From positions 1 to 35,167 of the forward strand of contig JANWJQ010000015.1 in NCBI GenBank assembly GCA_025451875.1: a stretch of 35,167 nt of DNA, read 5' to 3'. A model generated the notes under the pieces. That model saw only the letters and a program-made list of their open reading frames with translations, searched no databases and was not told the origin of the DNA. This document shows positions 6,987 to 30,198 of the stretch, one piece after another. This stretch comes from Rhizomicrobium sp. GTDB lineage: Bacteria > Pseudomonadota > Alphaproteobacteria > Micropepsales > Micropepsaceae. The number at the start of each line of letters is the position of its first letter. Within the stretch, counting starts at the first letter, position 1. A program made the translations under genes and the position numbers.

Positions 6987-7421
6987 ATGAATCGTTCAAC
7001 GATTTTTATGCTGACGTGCAGTACAGTTATCGCATTGTGCCAGCCCGCCCTCGCGATTGAAAAAACGCTCATTTGTGACAACGGCCTGCGGCCGGATCAG
7101 GTCCCGCACATCACAATGGATTTGGATGAGGCGAACAGCACGGTTACCGTCAACTATCCTGCCACAAGCATCTACTACGACTCTCTACTGAAAGATACGC
7201 CTGCGCGTTCCGTCGGTCCCGTGGCAGCAGCTTTCGACCCCAAGTCTATTGTCTTCGATCTTCGTGACCAGGAGCCCGGATTTTATAAGCACTTTACCCT
7301 GGACCGGCTGACGGGCGTACTCTTGGACTATAACAGCGTTGACGCGCCGTACGACAAGGCGCCAGCGACCGACAAAGGTGTTTGGAGCTACAATTGCCAG
7401 CTCGGCACTGCCAAATTCTGA
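6987..7421 (+). CDS. Secreted two-cysteine paralog 1 of the tandem family
   Basis: The 144-residue protein has a perfect AGGAGG five bases before the ATG and a signal peptide ending near ALA-IEK. The mature domain shows the family pattern: TLICDN, a hydrophobic/acidic stretch ITMDLDEANSTVTV, VGPVAAAFDPKSIVFDL, the motif LDRLTGVLL, a late Cys (YNCQ) and a C-terminal Phe (TAKF). The two family Cys probably pair. It gives one of the cleanest views of the family and is 12 bases from the next paralog, so the two are cotranscribed. Function is unknown; periplasmic or extracellular location is inferred. Confidence 0.85.
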   Translation: MNRSTIFMLTCSTVIALCQPALAIEKTLICDNGLRPDQVPHITMDLDEANSTVTVNYPATSIYYDSLLKDTPARSVGPVAAAFDPKSIVFDLRDQEPGFYKHFTLDRLTGVLLDYNSVDAPYDKAPATDKGVWSYNCQLGTAKF

Positions 7422-7433
7422 GGGGGGATCGTC

Positions 7434-7859
7434 ATGGCCAAACATCTTGCGACTTCCAGAATCGCACAATGTCTTTTGGGGGTCGCACTCTTATTTGGAA
7501 GTGCTGCGTCCGCGTCGGCGGATCAACTTATTTTGGTTTGTCGCTCCAATGTCCTGCGAGCCCAGCAAGACGGCAGCACCGGCTATGACGACAGTTACAA
7601 GATTTATGTCGATACCACCGCGCAAACCGAGCACACAGACAACTATCCGGCGCCCTTTCCTGTCGCCATCGACAGTCAGGCTATTGCGGGACACTATCAA
7701 AATCCAGTCTTTCCGAATAGCGCCACCTTTACCCGCATAGATCGCACGACCGGCGACTATGAATTTCGGCAATGCGACGGCAGCCAATGTGGGCAACCGC
7801 CTGCGTCTTGGGTCCTGACCGACAAGGGTCATTGCGAAAAAGGCGAACAGCGGTTTTGA
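7434..7859 (+). CDS. Secreted paralog 2 of the tandem family (divergent, extra cysteines)
   Basis: This 141-residue protein begins with the shared 5' cassette (MAKHLATSRIAQC...) and a signal peptide ending near ASA-DQ. It keeps LILVC at the mature start, IDRTTGDYEF in place of IDRLTG, a late Cys (GHCEK) and the C-terminal Phe (QRF). It differs by a pair of extra Cys (QCDGSQC) after the DRxTG motif and by a poorly matching middle. The binding site GGGGGGA precedes the ATG by about 6 bases. Extra disulfide bonding is likely. Function unknown. Confidence 0.85.
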   Translation: MAKHLATSRIAQCLLGVALLFGSAASASADQLILVCRSNVLRAQQDGSTGYDDSYKIYVDTTAQTEHTDNYPAPFPVAIDSQAIAGHYQNPVFPNSATFTRIDRTTGDYEFRQCDGSQCGQPPASWVLTDKGHCEKGEQRF

Positions 7860-7895
7860 ACGACTGCCCATTTGGGGAACGTCGGAGAGCTCATT

Positions 7896-7928
7896 ATGAC
7901 CAAACTCGCGGCGGCACGGGCATTTTGA
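7896..7928 (+). pseudogene. Truncated leader remnant of a family paralog
   Basis: An ATG with a GGAG upstream opens an 11-codon frame, MTKLAAARAF then TGA. This matches the first codons of the paralogs at 7434, 9269, 9688 and 10089 (M-x-K-H/R-L-A-A-S). Nothing of the mature domain follows; the unrelated gene at 7942 starts 13 bases on. It looks like a copy erased after the leader. Confidence 0.55.
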
Positions 7929-7941
7929 GAGGAGCTTGATC

Positions 7942-8220
7942 ATGCGTCGGAAATTTAAGGGGCTGGCACTGATGCCAGCCGCCGCACTGATCGGTGCGCT
8001 GATCCTGCTCGCGCTGCCTACCTCCGCCAACGCCTATACGCTGAGTGGCGACGGCTGCAACGGCAATGGCAATGAATGCAAGGTCTGGTGCAACAACGGT
8101 TCGCTGGCCGGCTCAATGCATTGGAATGGGACGGTGTGGACGGATGGAGACAAATGGGACGCCAACAAGGATACCGAGGCCAAGAAAATCTGTGCTGCCA
8201 ACGGGACCGCCTGCGTCTAG
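7942..8220 (+). CDS. Small secreted cysteine-rich protein
   Basis: The ATG at 7942 (after GAGAGGAG) gives a 92-residue protein; an in-frame TTG six bases earlier is less likely. Residues 1-30 form a signal peptide (ALIGALILLALPTSANA-YT). The mature part of about 62 residues has five Cys (DGC, NEC, VWC, KIC and TAC) and is rich in Asn, Gly and Trp. It does not belong to the DRxTG family and interrupts its array. A small disulfide-stabilised exported protein is likely; the odd Cys number leaves one free or bridging to a partner. Function unknown. Confidence 0.8.
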   Translation: MRRKFKGLALMPAAALIGALILLALPTSANAYTLSGDGCNGNGNECKVWCNNGSLAGSMHWNGTVWTDGDKWDANKDTEAKKICAANGTACV

Positions 8221-8256
8221 CATTTGCGTCAAGCACTTTGATTACGGGGACTCGAC

Positions 8257-8640
8257 ATGAAGTGGGCCACTTCACTTGCGTTTCTGGGAATGATCGCGTT
8301 TCCGACGGCTGGCATGGCCGATACGACCACCCTTGTGTGCAACCTGTCCAACCGAGTCGGTACAGCCGAAGATGAACCCACGACGATCGAATTGAACGAG
8401 GCGCAAAGCTCGGTTGTCGTTCACTTCGGTCAAAATCACTACACTGTACCCAATTATCAGACGGAAAGGGCCGTCTCCGTTGGACCTGTGCCGGCGGTAT
8501 TCGGTGCCAATACAATTTCTTTCTCCCTTCCCTACCCAGTTTATGGGGACCCGTATGTCCTCAATCGCCTGACTGGCTTTCTCTCCAATACAACTAGCGC
8601 CGGAAATTTTACCTGCCACGCGGTCCAGAAGCAGTTTTGA
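8257..8640 (+). CDS. Secreted two-cysteine paralog 3 of the tandem family
   Basis: This 127-residue protein has a short signal peptide (cleavage near GMA-DTT), then TTLVCNL, TIELNEAQSSVVVHF, SVGPVPAVFGANTISFSL, the motif LNRLTGFL (Asn for Asp), a late Cys (FTCHA) and the C-terminal end QKQF. It is close to the 6987 and 9269 proteins in the central segment. The start does not carry the shared 5' cassette, so it was copied with a different leader or has lost it. The stop is followed at once by the cassette of the 8661 gene. Confidence 0.85.
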   Translation: MKWATSLAFLGMIAFPTAGMADTTTLVCNLSNRVGTAEDEPTTIELNEAQSSVVVHFGQNHYTVPNYQTERAVSVGPVPAVFGANTISFSLPYPVYGDPYVLNRLTGFLSNTTSAGNFTCHAVQKQF

Positions 8641-8660
8641 ACATCATTGGGGGATTTGTT

Positions 8661-9230
8661 ATGGCCAACCGTCTCGCGGTTTCCGGAACTCACGCCATCG
8701 CTGAGTTAGCTCGTCGTATGAGCGGCGGGGCGAAGGGACATATCAGGCCACTCCTTACAAGAATCGTGATGATCGTTTTTTGCGCAATGGCGAATGTTGC
8801 TCCGGGAGCGGCGCAATCACAAACCGATAATTTGATTGTGCCCGGAGTGCGTGTGGGACCCGTTACCCTAGGTATGACAGATGTCGATCTCTATAAAATG
8901 CTTGGTGATCCCGCCCGGACGGATGTCACTTCAGACGGTGCAAGAATTCACTATGTGTATTCTTCGCTCGACGTGGGTGTGGACAGGGATTCCCATATAG
9001 TAGTTGCGGTTGAAACCCATGATCCGTCTTACGCCACTGCCGAAGGAATCAAGTTCGGATCATCAAGCCTGGCGCTAATGGTCGCAAAGCTCGGACCACA
9101 AGAGGCGGGTTCCTGCGGTCCCCCTGACCTTTGTGAATACACGACCTCCAACGGCCTCCATGTGGGACTCGATAGCAGAGGGTGCGTCAGGTACCTAACG
9201 ATCGTCAAAGAGGGATTTGGCGCGTATTGA
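8661..9230 (+). CDS. Exported protein with a SmpA/BamE-like repeat fold, behind a family 5' cassette
   Basis: The ATG at 8661 sits in the same cassette (TTGGGGGATTTGTTATGGCC) as the paralogs, giving 189 residues. The first 9 residues (MANRLAVSG) match the family leader, then the protein diverges. A second hydrophobic segment (IVMIVFCAMANVAPGAAQ) looks like its own signal peptide, so the native start may have been the ATG of MSGGAKG. The mature part has VGPVTLGMTDVDLYKMLGDP and later AEGIKFGSS, the pattern of SmpA/BamE-type beta-alpha modules. It has no DRxTG motif. A probable case of cassette capture by an unrelated gene; function unknown. Confidence 0.7.
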   Translation: MANRLAVSGTHAIAELARRMSGGAKGHIRPLLTRIVMIVFCAMANVAPGAAQSQTDNLIVPGVRVGPVTLGMTDVDLYKMLGDPARTDVTSDGARIHYVYSSLDVGVDRDSHIVVAVETHDPSYATAEGIKFGSSSLALMVAKLGPQEAGSCGPPDLCEYTTSNGLHVGLDSRGCVRYLTIVKEGFGAY

Positions 9231-9268
9231 TAATAAACATCTTGGATTTCGGTGAACGGGGAATTGTC

Positions 9269-9667
9269 ATGGTCAAACGTCTGGCGGCTTCTGGAATCGC
9301 ACCATGCTTTTTGGGACTGGTTGTCCTGGTATCGGCCAGTCCTGCAGCGCTAGCCGATCCGACGACACTTATATGCGACACAACGTCGAGCAACGCCGAC
9401 GGACCCGGCACCGTCGAGCTGAATGAGGCCGATGGTGCCGTCACTCTGTACGGTCCTGCGTTTCACTACCCTACAGGCGAACACTTTCCGGGCGGACTGA
9501 TGGGCAAGTACGCTGCCAAATTTGATTCCAAGACAATTACCTTCGTAGGCCCCCCAACCATGGACACTGGAGATGCCGGCGAAAAGATAACGATCGATCG
9601 CCTGACCGGAATGTTCACGCAGAATGGCTCTACTTGGACCTGCCATGTCGGCAAAACGCAATTCTGA
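9269..9667 (+). CDS. Secreted two-cysteine paralog 4 of the tandem family
   Basis: The ATG at 9269 follows the cassette GGGGAATTGTC and gives 132 residues; upstream in-frame starts lie in the previous gene. The signal peptide (MVKRLAASGIAPCFLG...) ends near ALA-DPT. Family landmarks are TTLICDT, TVELNEADGAVTLY, AKFDSKTITF, ITIDRLTGMF, WTCHVG and the end KTQF. It is most like the next gene downstream in leader and C-terminus, which points to recent duplication. Function unknown. Confidence 0.85.
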   Translation: MVKRLAASGIAPCFLGLVVLVSASPAALADPTTLICDTTSSNADGPGTVELNEADGAVTLYGPAFHYPTGEHFPGGLMGKYAAKFDSKTITFVGPPTMDTGDAGEKITIDRLTGMFTQNGSTWTCHVGKTQF

Positions 9668-9687
9668 ACATCAATGGGGGAATTGTC

Positions 9688-10068
9688 ATGGCCAGACATC
9701 TCGCGGCTTCCGGAATCGCACATTGCTTTTTGGGAATCGCAATCCTGGCAATGTCCTGTCAGGCGGTGCTGGCCGATACGGTCACGCTTATCTGCGATAA
9801 CCCCTATCACCCGGACAATCCGCCGTTCACCCTTGAGCTAGATCAGGCACAGGGGACAGTGACGCAAACTTTTTCTGCAACTCAGTACTCGCCCGCAGGC
9901 TCGAGCAAATACGCCGCGACATTCGACGCCCGAGAAATAAAATACACCATTGGCGATTTCGCTTATGCGATAGATCGCGTAACGGGCAACCTGACGGCCA
10001 CTTCCAATCCAGGCAATCCAAGAGTCGTCATGAATTTTCCTTGCCATGTCGGCAAAACGCAATTCTGA
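9688..10068 (+). CDS. Secreted two-cysteine paralog 5 of the tandem family
   Basis: The ATG at 9688 follows the cassette CAATGGGGGAATTGTC and gives 126 residues with a signal peptide ending near LA-DTV. It has VTLICDN, LELDQAQGTVTQTF, ATFDAREIKY, YAIDRVTGNL, a late Cys (FPCHVG) and KTQF at the end. The last 7 residues and the intergenic bases after the stop are nearly identical to those of the 9269 gene. Function unknown. Confidence 0.85.
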   Translation: MARHLAASGIAHCFLGIAILAMSCQAVLADTVTLICDNPYHPDNPPFTLELDQAQGTVTQTFSATQYSPAGSSKYAATFDAREIKYTIGDFAYAIDRVTGNLTATSNPGNPRVVMNFPCHVGKTQF

Positions 10069-10088
10069 ACGTCAATGGGGGAATTGTC

Positions 10089-10223
10089 ATGACCAAACAT
10101 CTTGACGTTTCGGGAGGCGCCGGAACCCTCACAGTTACTACCGTGGCTGAATCCGAAGGCTTTCGTCGCGTAACCCAAATGGAGGTCTGTACGCAAGTTC
10201 CTGCACCACAGACAAAGTTTTGA
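10089..10223 (+). pseudogene. Internally deleted family paralog (44 codons)
   Basis: The cassette and first codons (MTKHLDVSG) are intact, and the frame ends with a Cys and a family-like C-terminus (MEVCTQVPAPQTKF). The signal-peptide core, the first Cys, the LDEA segment and the DRxTG motif are all missing. With no export signal it cannot work like its neighbours, although a 44-residue peptide could still be made from the intact binding site. It is best read as a deletion remnant. Confidence 0.6.
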
Positions 10224-10299
10224 GAGCGGAGATCTGTCGGCATAATACCGCTTTCCGAAACAACGGACGAAACGCGTCGCAACAAGAAGGGGTATTGCA

Positions 10300-10746
10300 A
10301 TGAGAGTCGCAGCACTGTTCTTCGCTTTCGGGCTCGCAATCGCAGGAACATTGGGGGCAGCGCAGGCGGCACAGGTGCGTCTGCTTTGTCGGACGGCTCC
10401 GTCAATGTCAGAGCATATTTCTGCCGACAGCCCGCCGACCATTGAATTAGACGACCAAAAAATGACTGCCACGATTCATATGCCGGCCGAACACGATATA
10501 GCTACCGGCAGCAGCGGCCCAATAACTCCGTTTACGATCGGTCCTTTTCCAGCCACTTTCACAGCGGACCTGATTACAGTTGTTGAGCCACAAGGAAGCC
10601 CGCACGCAGCTGGGACGTGTTGGATGATCTCGCGCTTAACCGGGGAAGTGCATTGGGACTACCGTTCGAGCTCTTGTTCCGAAGATGAAAGTTCGCACGA
10701 CGCATGGATGGAGTGGACCTGCTCGCCGGCTAAAGCGCAGTTCTGA
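10300..10746 (+). CDS. Secreted paralog 6 of the tandem family (four cysteines)
   Basis: The 148-residue protein has its own signal peptide (MRVAALFFAFGLAIAGTLG, cleavage near AQA-AQ) rather than the shared cassette, and a binding site AAGAAGGGG. Landmarks are VRLLCRT, PTIELDDQKMTATIHM, IGPFPATFTADLITVV, ISRLTGEVHWD (Ser for Asp), WTCSP and the end KAQF. It carries an additional Cys pair (GTCWM and SSSCSE) flanking the RLTG motif, so a second disulfide across that motif is likely. Function unknown. Confidence 0.85.
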   Translation: MRVAALFFAFGLAIAGTLGAAQAAQVRLLCRTAPSMSEHISADSPPTIELDDQKMTATIHMPAEHDIATGSSGPITPFTIGPFPATFTADLITVVEPQGSPHAAGTCWMISRLTGEVHWDYRSSSCSEDESSHDAWMEWTCSPAKAQF

Positions 10747-10775
10747 GAAATTTTGCGATGTGCGAAGGAGAAAAA

Positions 10776-11129
10776 ATGAACCGCTATATCAGTCTTTTTT
10801 TCGGTAGCTCGCTTCTGTCGATCGCCCTGACCGTCCCGGCACTTGCCGAAAAAGTCACCCTCGCATGCTCATACGGCCCAGGATTTGTGACTACTTATTT
10901 GACGATCGATACTGATGCAAAAACTGTGAAAGATCCTGTAGGCACACATCCCGCAGAAATAACGGACGGTGCTGTAACTTGGACCATGCCCGCGGACTTC
11001 GCTGGCTGGCATGTGCCCAACATCTATGATCGACAAACAGGCCAGATAACGAGTGGGTGGATGGTGTATGACGGAGAAAAAAAGGAAATGGACCCTGTGC
11101 CCTGCGTTAGAGCACAGTCTCCGTTTTAA
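10776..11129 (+). CDS. Secreted two-cysteine paralog 7 of the tandem family
   Basis: The ATG at 10776 is preceded by GAAGGAG and gives 117 residues, the shortest intact member. The signal peptide ends near ALA-EKV. It keeps VTLACSY, YLTIDTDAKTVKD, IYDRQTGQI, a late Cys (VPCVRA) and the C-terminal Phe (QSPF). The central part is shortened and reads AEITDGAVTWTMP, which resembles the outlying member at 1587 (ITDERVEWSF). This links the two loci as one family. Function unknown. Confidence 0.85.
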   Translation: MNRYISLFFGSSLLSIALTVPALAEKVTLACSYGPGFVTTYLTIDTDAKTVKDPVGTHPAEITDGAVTWTMPADFAGWHVPNIYDRQTGQITSGWMVYDGEKKEMDPVPCVRAQSPF

Positions 11130-11576: not shown

Positions 11577-14500
11577 ATGGGGTCGGGGATGCTGGAAAGC
11601 TTTGTCTCGTACGCGCTTGCGGCTGCCATCGTAATCGGCTTCATCGTGTGGCGCGAACGGCGCAAACAGAAGGCCGCTGTCGAAAAGGCTCCCAGCGAAT
11701 TGGAGAGCGTGGGCGGTCCGCTGCAGCGTTTGACCGGGTCGATAGAGACCTTTGCGCGCAAGACTGTGCACCCGAGAGAATTGCTCGATTGTCCTGAATT
11801 CCGCGAAGCCGTGACGCTCCTCAAGCAAGATAACGTGAGCATCGATACAGTACGGCAATATGCGATGACGGGAAACGTCTATCTCGCCTCCGCCGCATTC
11901 GAGGCCCTGACGACAAGATCGGAACGGCAGTCGTTGTTCAACGCGATCATGATGCATTTTCGAAATCTCGAGCCCGACGTCATACATTACGCACTTCGAT
12001 TCTTCACGAGTTTCGATGCGCGGCCACCGGTCGGAGGACCGGTGGCGTTGGCCGAGGCTTGGTGGGGTTCGCGCGTGACGCTCGCGGACAGCTTTCGCGA
12101 CTATTTTTCGGCGCGCGAGAAGCTCGGCGATGCAGCGGAATTCGGCACGTATCTCGATTGGAGTGCCGCTTCCAAGCCGGCGATCATCGACGCCTTTCTG
12201 TCCTACATAGACCACCCGTACGCGCGCACGTTGCGCGATCAGCTTACACAATGGCGGGGATCTCGCGTCGACTCCAGTTTTCTTAATTCATTCGGCCGCT
12301 TCTGGGCCCAGACTTCGGAAGAGGCACTCGTCACACCGAAACCCTGGAGAGAACTAGTGGATCGTGCGGAACAAGCAGTTCTTGCCTTTCCGCCGCGTTC
12401 AGTTCTGGTTACGGGCGGTCCCCGCACCGGTAAGACGTCGTTTCTCAAGATTCTCGGTGAACGGCTAATGGTCGATGGCTGGCGCGTGTTTGAAGCGAGC
12501 GCCGCCGATGTGATGGCGGGCCAGATCTATTTCGGCGAATTGGAGGGGCGTATCCGCAATCTTGTGGCCGAGCTCGATGCGGGCAAGCGTGTGGCCTGGT
12601 ATGCTGGAAATATTCTTCAGCTCGCGGAAAGCGGTACGCATCGCGGACAATCGGCAAGCGTCTTCGACCAGATCCTTCCGGCGGTGATTGCAGGCCGTCT
12701 CGTCATCTTTGCTGAAGACAGCCCCGAAGCTGTCAGCCGGCTGTTCCAATCGCGTCCATCGTTACGTACCCAGATGGAAGTCTACCGGCTCGATCCCTTC
12801 AGCGCCGAAGAGTTCAGCGACTTTCTCGAGCGTGCGGCCCGGCAAATCGAGTTCATCCGTGACAAAATGATCGGCGAAGACGCCATCACCGCGTGCCTGC
12901 AGCTGTCGCAGCAATATCTCGGCGGCACGCATTTGGCCGGGATCGGTGTCGATCTGCTGAAACGCTCGGTACAAAATGCAGCCGAAGAATACCTCGTAAC
13001 GGCGGACCATGTGCTCATGGCCGTGTCGCAGATCAGCGGCATGCCCCAAGCGATAATTGACGACAAGGAGAAGATCGATCTGGCGAGCGTGCGCCACTTC
13101 TTCAGCTCCCGTTTGATCGGCCAGGACGAGGCGATCTCGGCGGTGGTGGATCGTATCGCCATGCTAAAGGGGGGGCTCGTCGATCCCCACCGTCCGGTAG
13201 GCGTCTTTTTGTTTGCCGGGCCGACCGGAACCGGCAAGACCGAACTTGCCAAAACTCTGGCCGAATACCTATTTAGCTCGCCCGAACGCATGACCCGCCT
13301 GGACATGAGCGAATTCCAGACCCCGGATTCGACTGTTAAGATCGTTGGCGAGCGTGGTTATTCCGCAACGGACTCTCTGACGGCGCGCATCCGCAAGCAG
13401 CCCTTCTCGGTGGTGTTGCTCGATGAATTTGAAAAGGCTCACGCCAACATATGGGACCTGTTTCTTCAGGTCTTTGACGACGGTCGATTATCGGACGCAA
13501 ACGGCCACGCGGTCGATTTCCGCCATACGATCATCGTCCTCACCTCCAATCTCGGCGCGACCGGCCATCAGAGCGCGGATGTCGGCTTCATGCACAAGAA
13601 AGGCGCCTATGGCGAGGAGCAGGTCCTGCGTTCGATCTCAAGAACCTTCCGCCCCGAATTCATCAACAGGCTGGACAAGATCGTGGTGTTCAAGCCGCTC
13701 TCGCGTGAGGTGATACGCGAGATTCTTCACAAGGAATTGCGCCAGATCCTGGATCGCCGCGGTCTTCGAAATCGCGACTGGGCCGTGGAATGGGAGTCCA
13801 CCGCAATCGAATTTCTGCTCGACCGGGGCTTTTCCCCGGAGATGGGCGCCCGCCCCCTCAAGCGTGCGATTGATCAACATCTTTTGGCGCCACTGGCGGC
13901 GACTTTGGTTGAGCACCGGTTCCCCGAAGGAGATCAGTTCCTTTTCGTGCGCAGCAATGGCAAGGCCATCGAAGTTGAATTCGTCGATCCCGACGCTCCG
14001 ATGCAGGCACCCGGCGACGCGGATGGGGCGGAGCAGAACGCGCCTCTCGAGGATCCTGTCTCGCTGGCAGCCATGATCTTGCAGCCCAGCGGTGGAGCGC
14101 ACGAGCGCGCGGCTCTTGAAGCGAGTTTTGAGGCACTCGAAACCACGCTCGCCTCGCCGGATTGGATTACGCTCAAGGACCGATTGCTCCAGCAGGCCTC
14201 CGCCGCTGATATCTGGTCGCGGCCGGATCGTCACGCGCTGTTCGCGCGCATCGCGGTGATGGATAGCGTCGAGGAAGCCGCGCGGACGGCGGACCGTCTT
14301 CATCGACGCCTGACGTCTCGCGGCACGCAGCCCTCTCGTGCATCGCGCGAGCTTGTCGGGCGCCTTGCGCTCCAACTCCACGTGATCGGAGAGGGTATCA
14401 CTGACGTGCGCACGGAAGCACCGGCAGATGTGGTGATCGCCGTCGAACCGGTATTAGACGCCGGTGGCGAGGCTGGACTGAGTGAGGAATGGTGCGGGCG

Positions 14501-14921
14501 CCTGGCGCGGATGTATCGCCAATGGGCAGAACGCCGTCGAATGCAGTTCGAAGACATGACGCCGCCTTCAAACGACAGAGATGCACTACTGCATGTGAAC
14601 GGCTTTGGCGCCTTCCGCACACTCGAAAACGAGGCAGGGTTGCATGTGTTGGAGGATGCGGTAACCGGGCTGCGCAGCGTTGCACGGGTCAAGATCACTC
14701 GCGGTCCACAAGAAGAGCCGCGCGGCCATGAAGCCTATCGAACTTATTCGGCCCTCCTCGCGCTCGCGGACGACCCTATCTCCATTGTCCGCCGTTACCG
14801 CGAAAAACCTGCGCCGTTGGTGCGCGATGCGCGTGGCGGTTGGCGCACCGGCCGGTTCGAAGCCGTTCTCTCTGGAGACTTTGATCTTTTTGGACATGTG
14901 AGAGTGTCAAGCACCGATTGA
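11577..14921 (+). CDS. Membrane-anchored ClpB-like AAA+ protein fused to a release factor 2-like domain lacking GGQ
   Basis: The 1114-residue protein has an N-terminal membrane helix (about 9-24). A first AAA+ module has Walker A GGPRTGKTS near residue 280, but its Walker B position (VAWYAGNILQL) lacks the acidic pair. A second, Clp-type module is complete: GPTGTGKTE near 548, VVLLDEFEKAH near 612 and FRPEFINRLDKIVVF near 690, then the D2 small domain. The ClpB middle coiled coil is absent. Residues about 840-1114 resemble RF2: a helical N-domain, LARMYRQWAERRRMQFED, NGFGAFRTLENEAGLHVLE, and a tail VRDARGGWRTGRFEAVLSGD. The GGQ catalytic domain and SPF codon-reading motif are missing. A ribosome-linked unfoldase is a plausible inference. 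ATG 11589 is an alternative start. Confidence 0.85.
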   Translation: MGSGMLESFVSYALAAAIVIGFIVWRERRKQKAAVEKAPSELESVGGPLQRLTGSIETFARKTVHPRELLDCPEFREAVTLLKQDNVSIDTVRQYAMTGNVYLASAAFEALTTRSERQSLFNAIMMHFRNLEPDVIHYALRFFTSFDARPPVGGPVALAEAWWGSRVTLADSFRDYFSAREKLGDAAEFGTYLDWSAASKPAIIDAFLSYIDHPYARTLRDQLTQWRGSRVDSSFLNSFGRFWAQTSEEALVTPKPWRELVDRAEQAVLAFPPRSVLVTGGPRTGKTSFLKILGERLMVDGWRVFEASAADVMAGQIYFGELEGRIRNLVAELDAGKRVAWYAGNILQLAESGTHRGQSASVFDQILPAVIAGRLVIFAEDSPEAVSRLFQSRPSLRTQMEVYRLDPFSAEEFSDFLERAARQIEFIRDKMIGEDAITACLQLSQQYLGGTHLAGIGVDLLKRSVQNAAEEYLVTADHVLMAVSQISGMPQAIIDDKEKIDLASVRHFFSSRLIGQDEAISAVVDRIAMLKGGLVDPHRPVGVFLFAGPTGTGKTELAKTLAEYLFSSPERMTRLDMSEFQTPDSTVKIVGERGYSATDSLTARIRKQPFSVVLLDEFEKAHANIWDLFLQVFDDGRLSDANGHAVDFRHTIIVLTSNLGATGHQSADVGFMHKKGAYGEEQVLRSISRTFRPEFINRLDKIVVFKPLSREVIREILHKELRQILDRRGLRNRDWAVEWESTAIEFLLDRGFSPEMGARPLKRAIDQHLLAPLAATLVEHRFPEGDQFLFVRSNGKAIEVEFVDPDAPMQAPGDADGAEQNAPLEDPVSLAAMILQPSGGAHERAALEASFEALETTLASPDWITLKDRLLQQASAADIWSRPDRHALFARIAVMDSVEEAARTADRLHRRLTSRGTQPSRASRELVGRLALQLHVIGEGITDVRTEAPADVVIAVEPVLDAGGEAGLSEEWCGRLARMYRQWAERRRMQFEDMTPPSNDRDALLHVNGFGAFRTLENEAGLHVLEDAVTGLRSVARVKITRGPQEEPRGHEAYRTYSALLALADDPISIVRRYREKPAPLVRDARGGWRTGRFEAVLSGDFDLFGHVRVSSTD

Positions 14922-19585: not shown

Positions 19586-19922
19586 TCACCTTTCCCCGGC
19601 ACGGCGACGGCGACTCCTGTTCATCCAGCTTGAAGCATTCGCACGGTTCAGTCTGCATCGATGATTGGGAGGCCACCGATAACCCCGCATATCGCGGGAC
19701 CCAAGCGCTTCGGTGGTTGGCAAACATCAACGAACGAGGATTCCATAGCAGCCTCAACGCGTTACCAGAGCAACCGCGATCGGAGCCGGGTGCGGATGCC
19801 GTGGGCGCTCGTTGAACATCGCAAACTCTGTTAGCCTTTTGCCATTGTCCGTCCGCGTGTCGCGCCGCATTTCGATATTTCAGACATCGATTTCATTCAG
19901 CCTTTCCGCAAAGGAGAAACCA
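19586..19922. other. Divergent promoter region of the RiPP-like locus
   Basis: The stretch separates the minus-strand membrane protein gene from the plus-strand precursor gene and must hold both promoters. Upstream in-frame starts for the precursor (for example at 19812) have no binding site. No other gene is seen. Confidence 0.5.
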
Positions 19923-20219
19923 ATGGCCGATATTCCGCCGCCGCCGCCAAAGCCGGCGATAGTCGAAATAGATAAGACCAAACAGCTAGACATGGCCGAA
20001 CGCATCAAGGCGATCCGGGTATCGTTCGCGAAGACCCGCGAATCCTTGCAGTCAGGTGCTGCGGCGGCGGGCATCCGCGTCGCGCAGGACGATTTCAACC
20101 AGGCCCTGCCGTTCCAGAACTTCAATCAGTTCACGAACTTCAACGACTTCACCAATTTCAACAACTTCACGAACTTCAACGACTTCACCAATTTCAACAA
20201 TTTCGGCAATGGCGGGTGA
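19923..20219 (+). CDS. RiPP-like precursor peptide with Phe-x-Asn/Asp repeats
   Basis: The start at 19923 is fixed by AAGGAG six bases upstream and gives 98 residues. Residues 1-9 are MADIPPPPP. A charged helical leader follows (DKTKQLDMAERIKAIRVSFAKT), with Ala/Gly-rich spacing. The last 35 or so residues are a putative core: LPFQNFNQ, then two copies of FTNFNDFTNFNN, then FGNGG. Every third residue is Phe and the third position of each triplet is Asn, Asp or Gln. Radical SAM cyclophane (triceptide) systems modify aromatic-x-x triplets of this kind, which fits the maturase gene 21 bases downstream. No signal peptide or membrane helix is present. The leader/core boundary is inferred. Confidence 0.85.
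   Translation: MADIPPPPPKPAIVEIDKTKQLDMAERIKAIRVSFAKTRESLQSGAAAAGIRVAQDDFNQALPFQNFNQFTNFNDFTNFNNFTNFNDFTNFNNFGNGG
20130..20201 (+). repeat. Tandem 36-bp repeat in the precursor core
   Basis: Two adjacent 36-bp units (20130-20165 and 20166-20201) are identical except for the last base (C or T, both AAC/AAT for Asn). Each encodes FTNFNDFTNFNN. Each unit also contains two 18-bp half-units differing at a few bases. The near-identity shows recent duplication of a coding block that sets core length. Confidence 0.9.
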
Positions 20220-20240: not shown

Positions 20241-22193
20241 ATGTCTTCCGCTATCGAACGTCCTCTTGCCCGGCCGGGTAACACGATTGAAACGGCACCA
20301 CTCGGGCTGCTCGTTCTGCAGCCCACGACTTTTTGCAACATCGACTGCCGCTATTGCTATCTGAGCCAGCGATCTGAAAACCACCGGATGAGCCCACACA
20401 CCGTGCAGGCGGTCGCGCGGTTCGTCCGCGATATACCTCTGCGCGACCAACGGTTGTCCGTCGTATGGCATGCCGGCGAACCGCTGGCCGCGCCGGTGGC
20501 GTTTTATGAAACTGCATTCCGGACTCTGAAAGCCGAAGCCGGTCCGATCGAATTCGAACATCATATCCAGACCAACGCGACGTTGATCAACGACGAATGG
20601 TGCGCGCTCTTCAAGCAATGGGGGGTGCATGTCGGCGTCAGCATCGATGGTCCCAAGGCGATAAACGACGCCCATCGCGTCGATCGCGCCAATCGTGGAA
20701 CGTTCGATCGCGTGATGCGCGGCATCGCAAAGCTCCGCGAACACGGCATACCGTTCACTGTGATCGGCGTTCTGACACAGGATGCCTTGAAAGCACCTGA
20801 GGACTTCTGGGCGTTTTTCGAGACACTGGGCGCCACACAAGTCGCCTTCAACGTGGAAGAACAGGAAGGCATCAACGCCTTGTCGACGCTTACGGAAGAC
20901 GGCTATGGGGATTTTCGCCGGTTCGTCGAGCGCATCGCTGAACTGCGGCGCAGCGGCCCGAAGCTCCGCCAACGGGAATTCGACGGCATGCGGGGACATC
21001 TAACGGCGCCGCCCGGTAGCGACCTGCAACGCGCCGACAACATGCCCGGCGCAATCATCAACATAGACTTCGAAGGCAATGTGACGACGTTTTCACCGGA
21101 ATTGCTGGGCGCCGAACACGACGACTACGGAACATTTCACTGGGGCAACGTGCACCGCGATGATTGGCAGGGCGTCGTGTCTCATCCGAACTTTCGCAAA
21201 GCCTATGCCGACATATTGGCCGGCGTTGCGCTCTGCCGGGAGACATGCGCGTATTTTTCCGTCTGTGGCGGCGGCAACCCCAGCAACAAGCTCACCGAAC
21301 TCGGCACCTTTGCCGGGACGGAAACCCAATTCTGCAAGCTGCATATACAGACCTTCGCTGACGTCGTGATCGAGGAGCTTGAGCGCGAACTATCATCCGG
21401 AGATTTGAAGGAGGACGTCTTGCCGCAAAGCAATCCTGTGAACACCGGCGCATCGAAGCCCGCAAAAGAGGTGGACATCTATTTGGCGGGCGCCGGCATC
21501 GCGTTTCCCGCGCATCTGACGATCGAAACCGTGGAAATCCTCACGGCCTGCAAGCGGATCTGCACCAACCTGCAGGAATCGATGCTGACGGGATTGCCAC
21601 AGGATCTGAAGGACAAATGCATCAGCCTCTGGCCGCTCTATCAGGACGGCCGGATTCGCAGCGAAAACTACAATGACGTGTTCAACGCCATCGTCGAAAT
21701 CGCTGAGGTCGAGCGGCCGATCGCCTGGCTGACGCCCGGACATCCGGTGATATTCGACAGCGTCACGACCTCGCTTCTGAACGCGGGAAAGTTACGGGGA
21801 TGGAACGTTCGGGTCATTCCAGCGATATCTTCCATCGACACGATGCTTGCCGAGCTGGGCTTCGATCCCGCCCACGGAATGCTGATCCATGAGGCGACCG
21901 GTCTTGTGAGGCGGCGCATTCCGCTGCACCGCACGGTCGCTGCGATGCTCCTGCAGCCGGCAGTGTTCGACGTCAACGTTGCGATTATCGACGCGGGGAG
22001 CAAAGGTCCAGATCTGTCGCCGCTGCGGGACTACATTGCGGAATTTCATGCGCCGGATCACAAATGCGCGTTCATCCGGTCTTCATCCGGCTTTGGCGAG
22101 CCCGATCTTGTGACCTGGACAGCCCTGCGCGATCTTACGAACGTGCCTTACGACAGGATCGCCGGCTCGACATTGTTCGTTCCGCCCGCCTGA
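20241..22193 (+). CDS. Radical SAM/SPASM-like maturase fused to a tetrapyrrole methylase-like (borosin-type) domain
   Basis: This 650-residue protein has two enzymes in one chain. Residues about 20-250 form a radical SAM domain with the cluster motif C32-x3-C36-x2-C39 (CNIDCRYCYL), then HAGEPL and SIDGP motifs typical of peptide maturases. A Cys-rich segment near 332-345 (CRETCAYFSVCGGG) and a later Cys (TQFCKLH) resemble the SPASM auxiliary-cluster region. Residues about 410-600 match the TP-methylase fold of borosin N-methyltransferases: IYLAGAGIAFPAHLTIETVE, WPLYQDGRIRSENY, TPGHPVIF and AELGFDPAHGMLIHEA. Predicted roles are cyclophane-type cross-linking and backbone N-methylation of the precursor. 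The start at 20241 is the first ATG and lacks a strong binding site. Confidence 0.85.
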   Translation: MSSAIERPLARPGNTIETAPLGLLVLQPTTFCNIDCRYCYLSQRSENHRMSPHTVQAVARFVRDIPLRDQRLSVVWHAGEPLAAPVAFYETAFRTLKAEAGPIEFEHHIQTNATLINDEWCALFKQWGVHVGVSIDGPKAINDAHRVDRANRGTFDRVMRGIAKLREHGIPFTVIGVLTQDALKAPEDFWAFFETLGATQVAFNVEEQEGINALSTLTEDGYGDFRRFVERIAELRRSGPKLRQREFDGMRGHLTAPPGSDLQRADNMPGAIINIDFEGNVTTFSPELLGAEHDDYGTFHWGNVHRDDWQGVVSHPNFRKAYADILAGVALCRETCAYFSVCGGGNPSNKLTELGTFAGTETQFCKLHIQTFADVVIEELERELSSGDLKEDVLPQSNPVNTGASKPAKEVDIYLAGAGIAFPAHLTIETVEILTACKRICTNLQESMLTGLPQDLKDKCISLWPLYQDGRIRSENYNDVFNAIVEIAEVERPIAWLTPGHPVIFDSVTTSLLNAGKLRGWNVRVIPAISSIDTMLAELGFDPAHGMLIHEATGLVRRRIPLHRTVAAMLLQPAVFDVNVAIIDAGSKGPDLSPLRDYIAEFHAPDHKCAFIRSSSGFGEPDLVTWTALRDLTNVPYDRIAGSTLFVPPA

Positions 22194-22208: not shown

Positions 22209-23057
22209 ATGGCAACGGATATTTCCGTTTTTCCGGGCGGCGGATCGCCGGTCGTGCTTTATCAACCCGGCGGCGATCTGCCCGAGCAGCGCATCCATTT
22301 GAGCCGCGGGACCTGCCCCGCGCGCGCAATCGACGAAAACCCGCCCTACTACATGGATGGCGCGCGCGTGCCGGTCCCCGACTGGAGGCCGGCGACGGCA
22401 GACGAAAATGCCGATCTCTGGTCCCGGAGCGCGCCGGCCGCGCATTGCGCCGTCGGCATCGTGCGGTTGTTCAATCCTTATATGTTGCGGCTCTTTGAAA
22501 ACCGCAGGGACATTTTTGAGAACCCGTCCGACGAAGAGACGTTGAAACACCCTTTGATGGCCCTGCTGCTCGACGTCACCGCAAAAAAAGGAATCGTCAT
22601 AAAGCACCTCCACTCCGCCAGAATGGGACGTGACGAACCCGGCCGGATCACCATGACCAAAGCCGTTGGGCAGGATGCGCGCGTCGGGCTTCATTTTGAC
22701 CGCTGGGACATGTGCCCGTTTGACGATCTGGCGAACAGCACTAATCGCGTGGCGATGAACCTGGGACCTACCGACCGATACTTTATTTTCGTGAACCAGA
22801 CGGCGGCCGGCATGTATGCGATGCTGTCAGATATCGGCGTGCAGGTGCCGCGAGATGTCGCGCCGATCGGTAAGGCGTTCATGCAGGCGTTTCCGGATTA
22901 CCCCGTCATCCGCGTGCGGCTGCAACCCGGCGAGGCCTATGTCGCGCCGACCGAAAATATCCTGCATGACGGCAGCAGCGCGGAAGTGAGCAACGTCAAC
23001 CACTATATTTCGGTTCGCGGCCGCTTCGAATTCGTGGATAATCATATCCGATGCTAA
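22209..23057 (+). CDS. Putative Fe(II)/2-oxoglutarate-dependent oxygenase of the RiPP-like locus
   Basis: The 282-residue protein begins 15 bases after the maturase, with GGAG before the ATG. A facial triad can be read as His162-x-Asp164 (GLHFDRWD) and His253 (NILHDGSS), with Arg270 or Arg272 (YISVRGRF) to bind the 2-oxoglutarate carboxylate. The segment between them (RVAMNLGPTDRYFIFVNQ and PGEAYVAPTEN) has the strand pattern of a double-stranded beta-helix. There is no signal peptide. In this context it would hydroxylate the precursor peptide, perhaps at Asn, Asp or Phe beta-carbons. The oxygenase call is from motif spacing; family membership is unconfirmed. Confidence 0.65.
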   Translation: MATDISVFPGGGSPVVLYQPGGDLPEQRIHLSRGTCPARAIDENPPYYMDGARVPVPDWRPATADENADLWSRSAPAAHCAVGIVRLFNPYMLRLFENRRDIFENPSDEETLKHPLMALLLDVTAKKGIVIKHLHSARMGRDEPGRITMTKAVGQDARVGLHFDRWDMCPFDDLANSTNRVAMNLGPTDRYFIFVNQTAAGMYAMLSDIGVQVPRDVAPIGKAFMQAFPDYPVIRVRLQPGEAYVAPTENILHDGSSAEVSNVNHYISVRGRFEFVDNHIRC

Positions 23058-23678: not shown

Positions 23679-26228
23679 CTAGAATCGATAGTCCAATCCC
23701 GCAGACACCGCTTGGCTGGCGTAATTTCCGGTGGGAAGCGTGAGTTCCGCGTCAACGTGCAGGTCGAGTGTGCCGTCGATCTGAACCTTGAGCCCGCCGC
23801 CAACGGTCACCAGATCGCGTGCGGGCGAAAGCCCCACTTTTTGCAAGGCATTGCTGCCGCGCACAAGGCTGGCGGTCACACGGCGATCCGTCGACAGCAC
23901 TTCATGACTGTAGCGAATCCGCATGGACGGCGTGATCTGCGCATTGTCGCCGGTCAGGTAGTTCGCCGAGAGTTCGGCGCCCGCATAGGGGCGAAGCGAA
24001 TCGGTGCTATCTGATGCGAATGTCAGATCGAATGACGGCGCACCGCTTTCGCTGCCGCTATCGCGACGCAGATAGACATAGTCCAGACCGGCACTCGGCG
24101 TGAGAGAGAGCATTCCCGCGGACAAATGCTCCGCCGCTTCCACGGCGCCCGAAATCACCTGACCGTCATAGGAACTGTTCGGGGACATCTGTCCGGTAAC
24201 GGCCTGAAAGGTGCGGTGCGTTTTGAACCGGCCCTGCGTGTAGCCCACCGATGCCGCAAGCGAGAACGTATCGACGGCGTAACCGCCGTAAAGCGCAACA
24301 TTGTAGAGATCGGCGTTACCGTTAGCCCGCGCAAAAGTCTGATCCAGATCGAGGCGGCTGAAACCGCCTGCCAGACCGAGCATCAGTCCGGAGTCGTAAC
24401 GGTGGTCGATACCGCCAAGGAACCCCGCCGTTCGAGTGCTGAAATCCGGCCCGCCGGCATCGCTGTCATATTGAGCAAACTGCCCCTGCATCGTCGCCCA
24501 AATGCCGCCACGCGCACCTGCGTCCGCGCGGTGGGCGACGCGTGACAGGATATTGCCGTCGCTCTGATGCGCATTATCAATCGCGGCAGTCGTCAACGAC
24601 GTTACCACCACGTCATTCGCGGGCTGAAGCGTCAGGTCGAGCTGTTTCTGCGTGGCGGTGAAGAAGTGCATTAGCCCGGGAGCGCCGTTGTCCACCACAG
24701 TGCTGAATTGGCCTGTGATATTTCCCGCACTCAGCAGCGTGTTCACCGAAGCCAGATAAGTGCCGCTCGCATACTGCAGGTCGAGCGTGCCGCCCAGGCT
24801 CGCATTGCCGGTAACGGCAAGTTCGGATGCACCGTTCGGCCCGATGGCGATGTCCAGAACGCCATTTGCACCCTGCGTGTAGTCGCCTTTGACCGTCAGC
24901 GTGCCGATCGAGCCTCCGGGGCTCACGGTGCCGTTGTTCACCGTATTGCCGTTGATTGTGCCGTGGCCCGAAAGCGTGCCATGCGCGCGTACCCTGACAT
25001 TGCTTGCGATGCTTGCTGTCGAATGGGCCGCATCGCCGATCTGCAATGTGCCGCCATCAATTATGGTGGGACCGCGATAGGTATCGTGGCCATTTAACAC
25101 GAGGATGCCGTTGCCTGATTTCGTCAGCGCTCCGGTGCCGGAAATGTTGTTGGACCAGGTCGAATTGTAGCCCGCCGTATCGACCGCCCAGTCCATATCG
25201 AAACTGCCTGGCCCCTGCACCGCAGCGCCGACGTTCAGAAGGCCGTGGCCATAAATGCTGGGATCGCCAATCGGCGTCGCGGTGGTGAGGACCGTCTGCA
25301 CAATCTGTTCCGACGTCATGTAGGGGAACGCCTGGAGCACCAGAGCGACCGCACCGGAGACGACCGGCGCCGCCATCGAAGTGCCGGACATATAGTCATA
25401 GTTGCCGCCTGGCCCGATTCCCGTGCCGGTCGGCACGGTCGAGTAGATGTCCACGCCCGGCGCGGCGATGCACCAGGCAGCATCGATGCCGCAGCGATTC
25501 GAGAAGCTGGCGATCTGGTTGTTCGCGTCGACGGCGACGACGGCGATGAACTGTTTCTGCAGATCGGGCATGGTCTCGGGCAGGTCGGCCAAATCCCATG
25601 GCTTGGTATCACTGAAGTTGCCGGCAGCAAATACGAAGATCATGCCGTGATCCTCGGCACTCTTGAGATTGTCGTGGATGTAGTTCAGGTAATCCTGACC
25701 GTAGAAACCGACAAACGTGACCCAGCTGTTGCTGGCGATGCGCACGCCCGCGTCAACCGCTCTCTGCAGGCCGTCGAAGAATTCGGTGTTGGTCTCCAAG
25801 ACATCGAAGGACGACAGGATGTTGAATGACATGACGTTGGCGCCATAGGCGACGCCCTGCATGCCGACGCCGTCGCGATTGGCCGCGATGGTGCCAGCGT
25901 CATGCGTGCCGTGACCGCTGAGGTCCGTCAGGTCTGTCGTATCGAATAGATAGTCGTAACCGCTGAGAGTCTTGCCGGCGAATTCTGGATTCGTGGGATC
26001 GAGGCCGGTGTCGAACAGCGCGACCGTAACACCGGCGCCGGTGTAGCCAAGCGCATACGCCTCGTCGGCGTGAATCTGCGCTAGCGCGCCCGATGCATAA
26101 TACTCCGCCGTGTCGAACGAAGATGGCGAAGTCTGCGCATCCGCATGTCCCATTAGAGCCAGAAAGCTGGCTGCAAGACTTAGTCCCGCGCTCAAGCGCA
26201 CGTTTCGTCCCCAATTGCCCGCACGCAT
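23679..26228 (-). CDS. Subtilisin-like serine protease autotransporter
   Basis: The 849-residue protein has a signal peptide (MRAGNWGRNVRLSAGLSLAA..., ending near ADA-QT). The S8 peptidase domain (about 40-335) carries the full triad: Asp73 in VALFDTGLD, His106 in SGHGTHDAG and Ser near 282 in SGTSMAAP. A passenger segment follows with an autotransporter-associated beta-strand repeat (TGALTKSGNGILVLNG and the glycine-rich repeats after it). The last 280 residues are an autotransporter beta-barrel ending in LDYRF, the C-terminal aromatic signal for outer-membrane insertion. It is therefore secreted by the type V route and displayed or released as a protease. The ATG at 26228 follows GGGGGCAGG. 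An AraC-type regulator gene lies directly upstream. Confidence 0.92.
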   Translation of the reverse strand: MRAGNWGRNVRLSAGLSLAASFLALMGHADAQTSPSSFDTAEYYASGALAQIHADEAYALGYTGAGVTVALFDTGLDPTNPEFAGKTLSGYDYLFDTTDLTDLSGHGTHDAGTIAANRDGVGMQGVAYGANVMSFNILSSFDVLETNTEFFDGLQRAVDAGVRIASNSWVTFVGFYGQDYLNYIHDNLKSAEDHGMIFVFAAGNFSDTKPWDLADLPETMPDLQKQFIAVVAVDANNQIASFSNRCGIDAAWCIAAPGVDIYSTVPTGTGIGPGGNYDYMSGTSMAAPVVSGAVALVLQAFPYMTSEQIVQTVLTTATPIGDPSIYGHGLLNVGAAVQGPGSFDMDWAVDTAGYNSTWSNNISGTGALTKSGNGILVLNGHDTYRGPTIIDGGTLQIGDAAHSTASIASNVRVRAHGTLSGHGTINGNTVNNGTVSPGGSIGTLTVKGDYTQGANGVLDIAIGPNGASELAVTGNASLGGTLDLQYASGTYLASVNTLLSAGNITGQFSTVVDNGAPGLMHFFTATQKQLDLTLQPANDVVVTSLTTAAIDNAHQSDGNILSRVAHRADAGARGGIWATMQGQFAQYDSDAGGPDFSTRTAGFLGGIDHRYDSGLMLGLAGGFSRLDLDQTFARANGNADLYNVALYGGYAVDTFSLAASVGYTQGRFKTHRTFQAVTGQMSPNSSYDGQVISGAVEAAEHLSAGMLSLTPSAGLDYVYLRRDSGSESGAPSFDLTFASDSTDSLRPYAGAELSANYLTGDNAQITPSMRIRYSHEVLSTDRRVTASLVRGSNALQKVGLSPARDLVTVGGGLKVQIDGTLDLHVDAELTLPTGNYASQAVSAGLDYRF

Positions 26229-28307: not shown

Positions 28308-29798
28308 ATGCCCGAATTTTCCGTCGCCAACCTCCCCGAGATCTTTGTCTCCGACACCGCGATTTCCAAGCCGGTGTCGGAAGCGGTGGAGCGTGGCCAA
28401 TTGCGTCGGCTCGCCTCCCGGCTCTACAGCCGCAACCTCACGGAAGATCCCGCCAAGCTGGTCCGCCGCAACTGGTCGCGGCTGATTGCGGGCTATTACC
28501 CGGACGCCCTCATCGCCGACCGCACCGCGCTGGAGAACCAGCCGGCCGAAGACGGCTCGGTGTTTCTTATCTCCGACAAGAAGCGCGACACCAAACTGCC
28601 CGGCGTGACGTTCCGGCCGCGAAAAGGCCCGGGGCCGCTCGACAGCGACAAGCCCTTTGTGGGCGGCGCGCGCCTGTCGTCGGTGCCGCGCGCCTATCTC
28701 GAAAACATGCGCGCGTCGCGCGCGCGCGACAATCGGACTCCGCGCACGCTCACGCGCGCTGAGCTCGAGACCCGCCTGGACGCCCTCATCCGCCGTCAAG
28801 GCGAGGATGCGGCCAACAAGCTGCGCGACGAGGCACGCGCCATCGCGCCGCAGCTCGACCTGCAGAAAGAGTACGAAGAACTGAGCGCGCTCATCGGCAC
28901 TTTGCTGGGCACGCGCGACGCCAAGCTGGAAAGTCAAGCCGGCAAGGCGCGCGCGGCCGGGCACCCCTTCGATCCGGATCGGGTGCGCCTGTTCGAAACG
29001 CTGTTCCGCGCCTTGCGCGAAACCGTCTCGCCCGAACGGCCCGCGCCGGAGCGCGACGCAGACGCCAACGGCACGCTCGCCTTTTTCGAGGCTTACTTCT
29101 CGAACTTCATCGAAGGTACGGAATTTTCCGTCAAGGAAGCCGAAGACATCGTCTTCAACGGCGTCATTCCCGCCGAACGGCCGCAAGACGCACATGATGT
29201 GCTGGGCACGTTTCGCATCGTCTCGGATCAGGGCGAAATGCAACGCACGCCCAAGAACTTTGCCGAGTTCATCGACTTTCTGAGACGCCGCCACGCGATC
29301 ATCATGGAAGCGCGGCCGGATAAGAACCCGGGCAGTTTCAAGACCAAGTCCAACCAGGCCGGCATGACGGTGTTTGTGACACCGGAGCTGGTGATCGGGA
29401 CGCTGGAAAAGGGCTTCGAGTTTCTGGGCGCCTTGGCCGAACCGCTTCAAAGAGCTGCCTTCATGATGATGCTGGTGAGCGAAGTGCATCCGTTTGCCGA
29501 CGGCAATGGCCGGATTGGCCGCATCATGATGAACGCCGAGCTGGTGGCGGCCGGCCAGGAGCGCATCATCGTGCCCACCGCGTTCCGCACCGATTACCTG
29601 GGTCCGCTCAGGGCGTTCTCCCACAACGGCGAGACGGCGCCCCTGATCCGCATGCTCGATGTGGCGCAGCGCTACACGCACGGCATCGACTGGCGCAATC
29701 TGGAGAGCGCGCAAGCGATGCTGGAAAAAACCAATGCGTTTGCGCAAGGCGAGGACGCCAAGCTGCACGTCGACTGGCAGAGCTGGCCTACGAAATAG
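28308..29798 (+). CDS. Fic-domain enzyme with AbiEi-like N-terminal domain
   Basis: The start at 28308 is set by AGGAG six bases upstream; the ATG at 28284 directly abuts an operator repeat. The 496-residue protein begins with a winged-helix-like region similar to AbiEi antitoxins (SEAVERGQLRRLASRLYSRN, DPAKLVRRNWSRLIAGYYPD and IADRTALE). A helical middle follows. The Fic domain carries SNFIEG (about 265-270), matching the inhibitory (S/T)xxxE(G/N) motif. The catalytic loop HPFADGNGRIGR (about 394-405) has the His and phosphate-binding residues intact. Fic enzymes usually AMPylate a hydroxyl side chain; the target is unknown. Because inhibition motif and enzyme are on one chain, no separate antitoxin is needed. 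Confidence 0.92.
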   Translation: MPEFSVANLPEIFVSDTAISKPVSEAVERGQLRRLASRLYSRNLTEDPAKLVRRNWSRLIAGYYPDALIADRTALENQPAEDGSVFLISDKKRDTKLPGVTFRPRKGPGPLDSDKPFVGGARLSSVPRAYLENMRASRARDNRTPRTLTRAELETRLDALIRRQGEDAANKLRDEARAIAPQLDLQKEYEELSALIGTLLGTRDAKLESQAGKARAAGHPFDPDRVRLFETLFRALRETVSPERPAPERDADANGTLAFFEAYFSNFIEGTEFSVKEAEDIVFNGVIPAERPQDAHDVLGTFRIVSDQGEMQRTPKNFAEFIDFLRRRHAIIMEARPDKNPGSFKTKSNQAGMTVFVTPELVIGTLEKGFEFLGALAEPLQRAAFMMMLVSEVHPFADGNGRIGRIMMNAELVAAGQERIIVPTAFRTDYLGPLRAFSHNGETAPLIRMLDVAQRYTHGIDWRNLESAQAMLEKTNAFAQGEDAKLHVDWQSWPTK

Positions 29799-29801
29799 CC
29801 G

Positions 29802-29943
29802 CCGCCATCACCACCACCGCCATCGTCGACGACGACGACATCAACAACAACACCGTCATCATCAACGGCACCGTCGCCACCGCCAACACCATCAACGGCA
29901 TGAAGAAGAAGATGATGATGATCATCATCATGATGGTGATGGG
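29802..29943. repeat. Trinucleotide-biased low-complexity tract
   Basis: Directly after the Fic stop, about 140 bases consist almost wholly of NCA, NCG and later GAN triplets (CAC, ATC, GTC, GAC, AAC). It ends in a perfect 20-base palindrome at 29912-29931 (ATGATGATGA and its complement). Open frames across it encode runs of His/Asp, Met/Ile or Val and are composition artefacts. In the next frame the Fic gene would gain a His-rich tail. The rest of the gap to 30198 shows no gene. Confidence 0.7.
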
Positions 29944-30198
29944 TCTTGCGACAGAGGCAATGCTCGTCAGAGCCGAGACTGCATACACGCCCGGTCCACA
30001 AAAGCCCGGCCGCGCGACGCGTGACGCGCGGGTCGCACACCGCCCGCCAGCAGGTTATCAACGGACGCTTCAAGGTGCCCGCAATGTTGGAATGATCTCC
30101 GATCGGCGAGACTGGGATGGAATGCCCTCATCCGCCGGCAGGCTGATGGCCGAACATCTGCGCCAAGGATCGAAGCCCGAAGGGCGGAGACGCGAGCG

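Follow-up and report, generated by a model that had tools for sequence, protein, structure and literature searches.

Cyclophane maturases and borosin methyltransferases are the closest described relatives of the enzymes considered here. According to the passages of a review that deal with OscB and XncB (PMC11002830), their links always join residues i and i+2: for Trp, OscB attaches C7 to the C-beta of Asn or Asp, and for Phe, XncB or OscB attaches C4 to the C-beta of Asn. Because such Phe–Asn chemistry is reported, F-x-N can be counted among the established motifs of these maturases. In the borosin methyltransferase SonM, the available part of PMC8429565 gives an efficiency decrease of about 100-fold for R67K and Y71F and of about 14-fold for Y58F, and little effect for Y93F. 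A fusion of a radical SAM enzyme with a borosin-type methyltransferase appears in none of the titles and abstract beginnings listed in searches of open-licence papers, which is weak evidence of absence, and is not mentioned in the available portions of three borosin papers (PMC11395268, PMC11285071 and PMC8429565).

The window analysed here, a whole stretch of 35,167 nucleotides from a Rhizomicrobium sp. contig, contains a precursor gene, a gene for a two-domain fusion protein that starts 21 bases after it and a probable oxygenase gene 15 bases further on, all on the same strand (Table 1). We read this locus as a triceptide pathway that includes an enzyme of borosin type, which would join two known kinds of RiPP. 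Because the precursor adjoins an enzyme that is predicted to join a ring-closing and a backbone-methylating half, two kinds of tailoring may act on one molecule. An earlier note on the locus had seen the array in the precursor and had overlooked both the oxygenase and the fusion to a methyltransferase.

Table 1. Features of the candidate gene cluster, in window coordinates
Feature	Coordinates	Strand	Basis
Probable ribosome binding site AAAGGAG, 6 bases upstream of the precursor ATG	19910..19916	+	Sequence read directly; inference
Precursor peptide gene, 98 aa, ATG start	19923..20219	+	ORF and translation
Leader motif AERIKAIR, probable recognition element	19995..20018	+	Pattern match common to related precursors
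Core array, 11 abutting F-x-[N/D/Q] triplets	20112..20210	+	
First 36-bp copy, FTNFNDFTNFNN	20130..20165	+	
Second 36-bp copy	20166..20201	+	One synonymous difference, at the last base
650-aa fusion of a GrrM/OscB-type radical SAM/SPASM maturase and a TP-methylase	20241..22193	+	TIGR04261; PF04055 and PF00590 over cut-off
Radical SAM/SPASM domain, residues 1–385; CxxxCxxC at C32, C36, C39	20241..21395	+	
Borosin-like methyltransferase domain, residues 405–650; Y467, R473, Y477 kept	21453..22190	+	PF00590, PDB matches, key residues
282-aa probable Fe(II)/2-oxoglutarate oxygenase	22209..23057	+	PDB 9vkm match, iron-triad columns

The precursor gene and its core array

The core reads FQN, FNQ, FTN, FND, FTN, FNN, FTN, FND, FTN, FNN, FGN, then GG and the stop codon, with Asn (8), Asp (2) or Gln (1) at position 3. 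It consists solely of F-x-N/D/Q triplets without a spacer, just as the earlier note had read it; the triplets abut, where that note had called them overlapping, and there are 11 of them for its 'about ten' adjacent rings. The span it had given to the core (20100–20219) is wider than the array and includes four residues of the leader as well as the terminal GG and stop. Its 36-bp units are present as described and differ by a single C/T at the final base (AAC/AAT, both Asn); the 35/36 identity suggests that the duplication is fresh. Two shorter periods underlie it, one of 9 bp and an older one of 18 bp (82% match).

In the rest of the window, read in six frames, the longest [FWY]x[NDQ] run is two, and no run exceeded two in 60 first-order Markov sequences. 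Together with the related precursors described below, these controls rule out that the array is a product of chance or a meaningless translated repeat. At E values up to 0.1 the precursor has no match in NCBIfam, its Pfam matches all stay below cut-off, and searches of genomes found no second genome carrying this cluster.

Triplet register and leader in related precursors

Maturase relatives were collected from one scan of genome contigs (13) and from further searches, and duplicate rows (L060, L063–L066, L069, L074, L075 and L078) were removed before counting. Uninterrupted runs of at least three triplets are found in 14 of the 22 distinct related precursors and comprise 74 triplets in total, in which position 1 is W (61) or F (13), position 3 is N (67), D (5), Q (1) or P (1), and position 2 is occupied by nine different residues. 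The earlier note had considered that relatives might lack the triplet register or vary position 3 freely. These counts rule out a missing register, which is kept with an aromatic residue at position 1, Asn at position 3 and a variable position 2. Most relatives have Trp, not Phe, at position 1; a precursor from the window's own class (G341) contains eight contiguous F-x-N triplets, FPNFPNFNNFPNFPNFPNFPNFRNF. The longest run among relatives is nine triplets (L029), against 11 in the window. No precursor was found by the search pattern used in L028, L031 and L045, and the viral contigs searched yielded no relative.

The leader pattern [RQK][LIVM]xx[IVLA]R is present in the window precursor and in 20 of the 22 related ones, and is missing in L030 and L032. 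Two Gly-spaced precursors (L026 and L022) were tested and pass TIGR04260, scoring 46.9 and 38.2 bits against a cut-off of 31, and this model has no match to the contiguous-type precursors of L070, L029 and L032, to the second precursor of L026 (E up to 1 for these four) or to the precursor of the acidobacterial locus G932. On this division, the contiguous-type precursors are kin to GrrA that lie outside its model. Gly-spaced and contiguous-triplet precursors stand side by side in L026, L033 and L068, with one maturase gene seen in each. Streptomyces specialis (genome G809) has a second GrrM-like maturase together with a precursor that ends in repeated FDNRPTWDN units (L077, 2343–2753 in the minus-strand reading of the locus).

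The maturase half and probable ring formation

Residues 26–382 of the fusion match the GrrM/OscB cyclophane maturase model TIGR04261 at 390–392.5 bits (cut-off 310), and seven Cys columns (C32, C36, C39, C332, C336, C342 and C365), which include the CxxxCxxC and the SPASM cysteines, are invariant among 12 aligned maturases. In the structure model, the maturase half is mostly of high confidence and is the sole trustworthy half. The fusion is known from one sequence in one draft assembly that is 81.6% complete, and its 172 contigs leave room for an assembly or sequencing artefact; this is very improbable, in view of the single open frame of 650 residues, the GC3 and composition that continue evenly over the joint, and the adjacency of both partners in another phylum.

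With a maturase of this family and the register kept, the earlier note's idea that each Phe links to the third residue of its triplet is supported by precedent, which stops short of showing ring formation itself. Rings are very likely in at least several triplets. The two F-x-D triplets and the one F-x-Q triplet of the window fall outside the Phe chemistry described in the passages of PMC11002830, and closure of every triplet is to that extent unsupported. It is rather unlikely that few triplets are cross-linked and that the remainder is a low-complexity spacer grown by slippage, a reading consistent with the Gly residues that separate the motifs in sister precursors of the TIGR04260 type and with literature passages that report no fully closed contiguous array; against it, relatives from different phyla keep positions 1 and 3 and vary at position 2.

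The methyltransferase half

Residues 413–613 of the fusion match the Pfam TP_methylase family PF00590 at 62.5 bits (cut-off 27.8). The PDB chains nearest to the methyltransferase half are those of the fungal borosin enzymes MroMA1 (8e-14) and OphM (4e-12), followed by the bacterial SonM (2e-6). Window residues were matched to SonM by alignment and spacing, which equates R473 with R67 and Y477 with Y71 and places W464 at Y58 and P499 at Y93. All 14 aligned borosin-like rows have the equivalents of R473, Y477 and Y467, and three TP-methylases (L038–L040) that we label cobalamin-type lack these Arg and Tyr residues. Because W464 and P499 replace SonM tyrosines, the domain could have weak or altered activity; the SonM position 58 varies freely among the same 14 rows. 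The structure model, built with no aligned rows for this half, has pLDDT mostly below 50 here. The fusion polypeptide contains no core peptide, and the precursor is a separate gene.

TP-methylases use varied acceptors, and Asn or Asp occupies position 3 of the array, so the enzyme might target these side chains, a terminus or another group rather than a backbone amide nitrogen. This is quite unlikely, as borosin N-methyltransferases are much closer to the window domain than the best other TP-methylase, the uroporphyrin-III methyltransferase 1ve2 (0.004), which is the lone non-borosin member of the family in the whole-protein PDB listing. On balance, we favour methylation of the backbone nitrogen.

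The methyltransferase partnership in other loci

The comparison set comprises 29 distinct GrrM-type loci besides the window, some with short flanks. No maturase–methyltransferase fusion was found among them, and a borosin-like methyltransferase is present in two, G932 and G1848, which belong to one acidobacterial genus and were found by way of the phylum to which a Bryobacterales (Acidobacteriota) genome belongs. In both, the methyltransferase is a separate gene, and its start and the stop of the maturase gene overlap in the sequence ATGA. The G932 locus contains, in this order, a precursor with a run of eight W-x-N/S triplets, the maturase, the methyltransferase (dbOphM 7e-19 and SonM 6e-13) and a di-haem oxidoreductase gene, with an oxygenase gene on the other strand. 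The first four genes are also present in G1848, where the methyltransferase is broken only by an assembly gap of Ns, and the available G1848 stretch has no oxygenase match. The nine aligned triplets of the two cores are the same at position 1 (9/9) and position 3 (9/9, one of them Ser) and agree at position 2 in four of nine. Since both have nine triplets, variation in array length, which the earlier note had thought probable between strains, is not seen at this distance. Nei–Gojobori dN/dS between the two loci is 0.14 for the maturase, 0.17 and 0.16 for two parts of the methyltransferase and 0.16 for the precursor. A tree pairs the methyltransferase domains of the window and G932 (88/82), a pairing clouded by a warning of long-branch joining.

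These loci bear on whether the fused domain methylates at all. Rings might form while the methyltransferase half serves in dimerisation or as a peptide-holding scaffold for the long array, which would suit W464 and P499 in place of two SonM active-site tyrosines and the 27 of 29 related loci that show no methyltransferase gene in the available stretch. We consider this improbable given that R473, Y477 and Y467 are kept and that the separate methyltransferase of G932 and G1848 is under purifying selection (dN/dS about 0.16). Action of the methyltransferase on the window precursor is likely.

Other methyltransferase homologues lie outside these two loci. A broken-up one lies on a 4.5-kb contig (G1821) to which the window and G932 maturases have no match, and no array was seen by eye in the methyltransferase neighbourhoods inspected in Bradyrhizobium and Legionella. 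At L041 (1441–3135), a borosin-like methyltransferase ends in an extended tail with TEQH/AEQH-type repeats at the C terminus, which might represent several copies of a fused core.

The probable oxygenase gene and local neighbours

Compared with the PDB, the oxygenase matches MicC (9vkm), which is named as a non-heme iron oxygenase dependent on alpha-ketoglutarate, at 4e-20 over residues 28–263, and nothing else falls below E 1. The HxD and distal His columns of the HxD...H iron triad are kept in all six aligned oxygenase sequences. Relatives occur in seven of the 29 other loci, one of them weak (L077). That the oxygenase acts on the window peptide is reasonably probable.

An S8/subtilase autotransporter gene (23679–26228, minus strand) is convergent with the oxygenase gene; it was not adopted as the leader peptidase, as its protease part has no relative in the 19 loci compared. 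An AraC regulator was also set aside as a member of the system, with matches near two of 19 loci only (L031 and L046). Upstream, on the plus strand, the window contains a series of small proteins that look exported (about 120–160 aa; 6987–11129), several of which are mutually related; 9182–9667 and 9634–10068 share 42% identity (E 5e-27), and the series is a tandem paralogue family. It is followed on the same strand by a 1114-aa ClpA/ClpB-like AAA protein (11577–14921), an odd combination in that its C-terminal part has a match to PCRF, a domain of peptide chain release factors (30.8 bits, cut-off 24). Further downstream, a His-rich repeat in an unconfirmed reading frame (29659–30024), with an 18-bp tandem repeat at 29839–29875, comes after a 504-aa ORF that is Fic-like by eye.

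Proposed pathway and its implications

Taken together, the gene content makes it somewhat probable that the three genes form a RiPP operon in which the maturase rings the array, the fused methyltransferase N-methylates the same peptide and the oxygenase hydroxylates the product. In the order of steps that we infer, the leader helix AERIKAIR would dock on the GrrM/OscB-type maturase, and in many of the 11 triplets radical SAM chemistry would connect the position-1 Phe to the beta carbon of the position-3 Asn or Asp, so that three-residue cyclophanes follow one another along the peptide. The fused domain would then N-methylate backbone amides of this peptide. The maturase, rather than a borosin leader domain, may bring the peptide to the methyltransferase, and the fused or overlapping layout would deliver a leader-bound substrate. 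The neighbouring oxygenase would finally hydroxylate the product.

A more far-reaching reading, which we advance tentatively and hold to be somewhat doubtful, is that the locus represents a hybrid class of RiPPs. A single bifunctional enzyme would then close a series of as many as ten or eleven abutting three-residue cyclophanes and also N-methylate the amides that connect them, so that the product would be a fully constrained peptide shaped like a rod. On this view the two partners would first have been encoded by overlapping genes that later fused, and the maturase would supply the recognition that otherwise comes from borosin leaders. If the proposed pathway is right, side-chain cyclophanes and backbone N-methyl groups, both prized for drug-like peptides, would co-occur in one polypeptide, with a single enzyme for making both chemistries. 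The system would also test how far abutting rings can close, would provide a search rule for more examples (aromatic-x-Asn without spacers) and would widen the range of settings that recruit borosin-type enzymes.

Comparison with known systems

The TvgABC poly-cyclopropylglycine pathway resembles the window in combining a repeat precursor with a radical SAM enzyme and an iron/2-oxoglutarate enzyme; it differs in modifying a single Val in Thr-Val-Gly-Gly repeats, and no methyltransferase is mentioned in the review passages on it (PMC11002830). The likeness of the window oxygenase to the 2-oxoglutarate oxygenase MicC is a sequence match, and function is not transferred from it. Like GrrM/OscB triceptide systems, the window has a maturase that scores above the TIGR04261 cut-off, aromatic-x-Asn motifs encoded next to a 3-CyFE and a leader motif common to precursors that pass TIGR04260. 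Unlike in those systems, its motifs abut without Gly spacers, its precursor does not match TIGR04260 and its maturase bears a methyltransferase domain. With the borosins OphMA, MroMA1 and SonM, which are nearest in the PDB, the window TP-methylase shares the conserved Arg and Tyr residues, a likeness by sequence only. Unlike in borosins, the methyltransferase is fused to a radical SAM enzyme and not to its own core peptide, and the predicted substrate, a precursor of cyclophane type, has a short leader.
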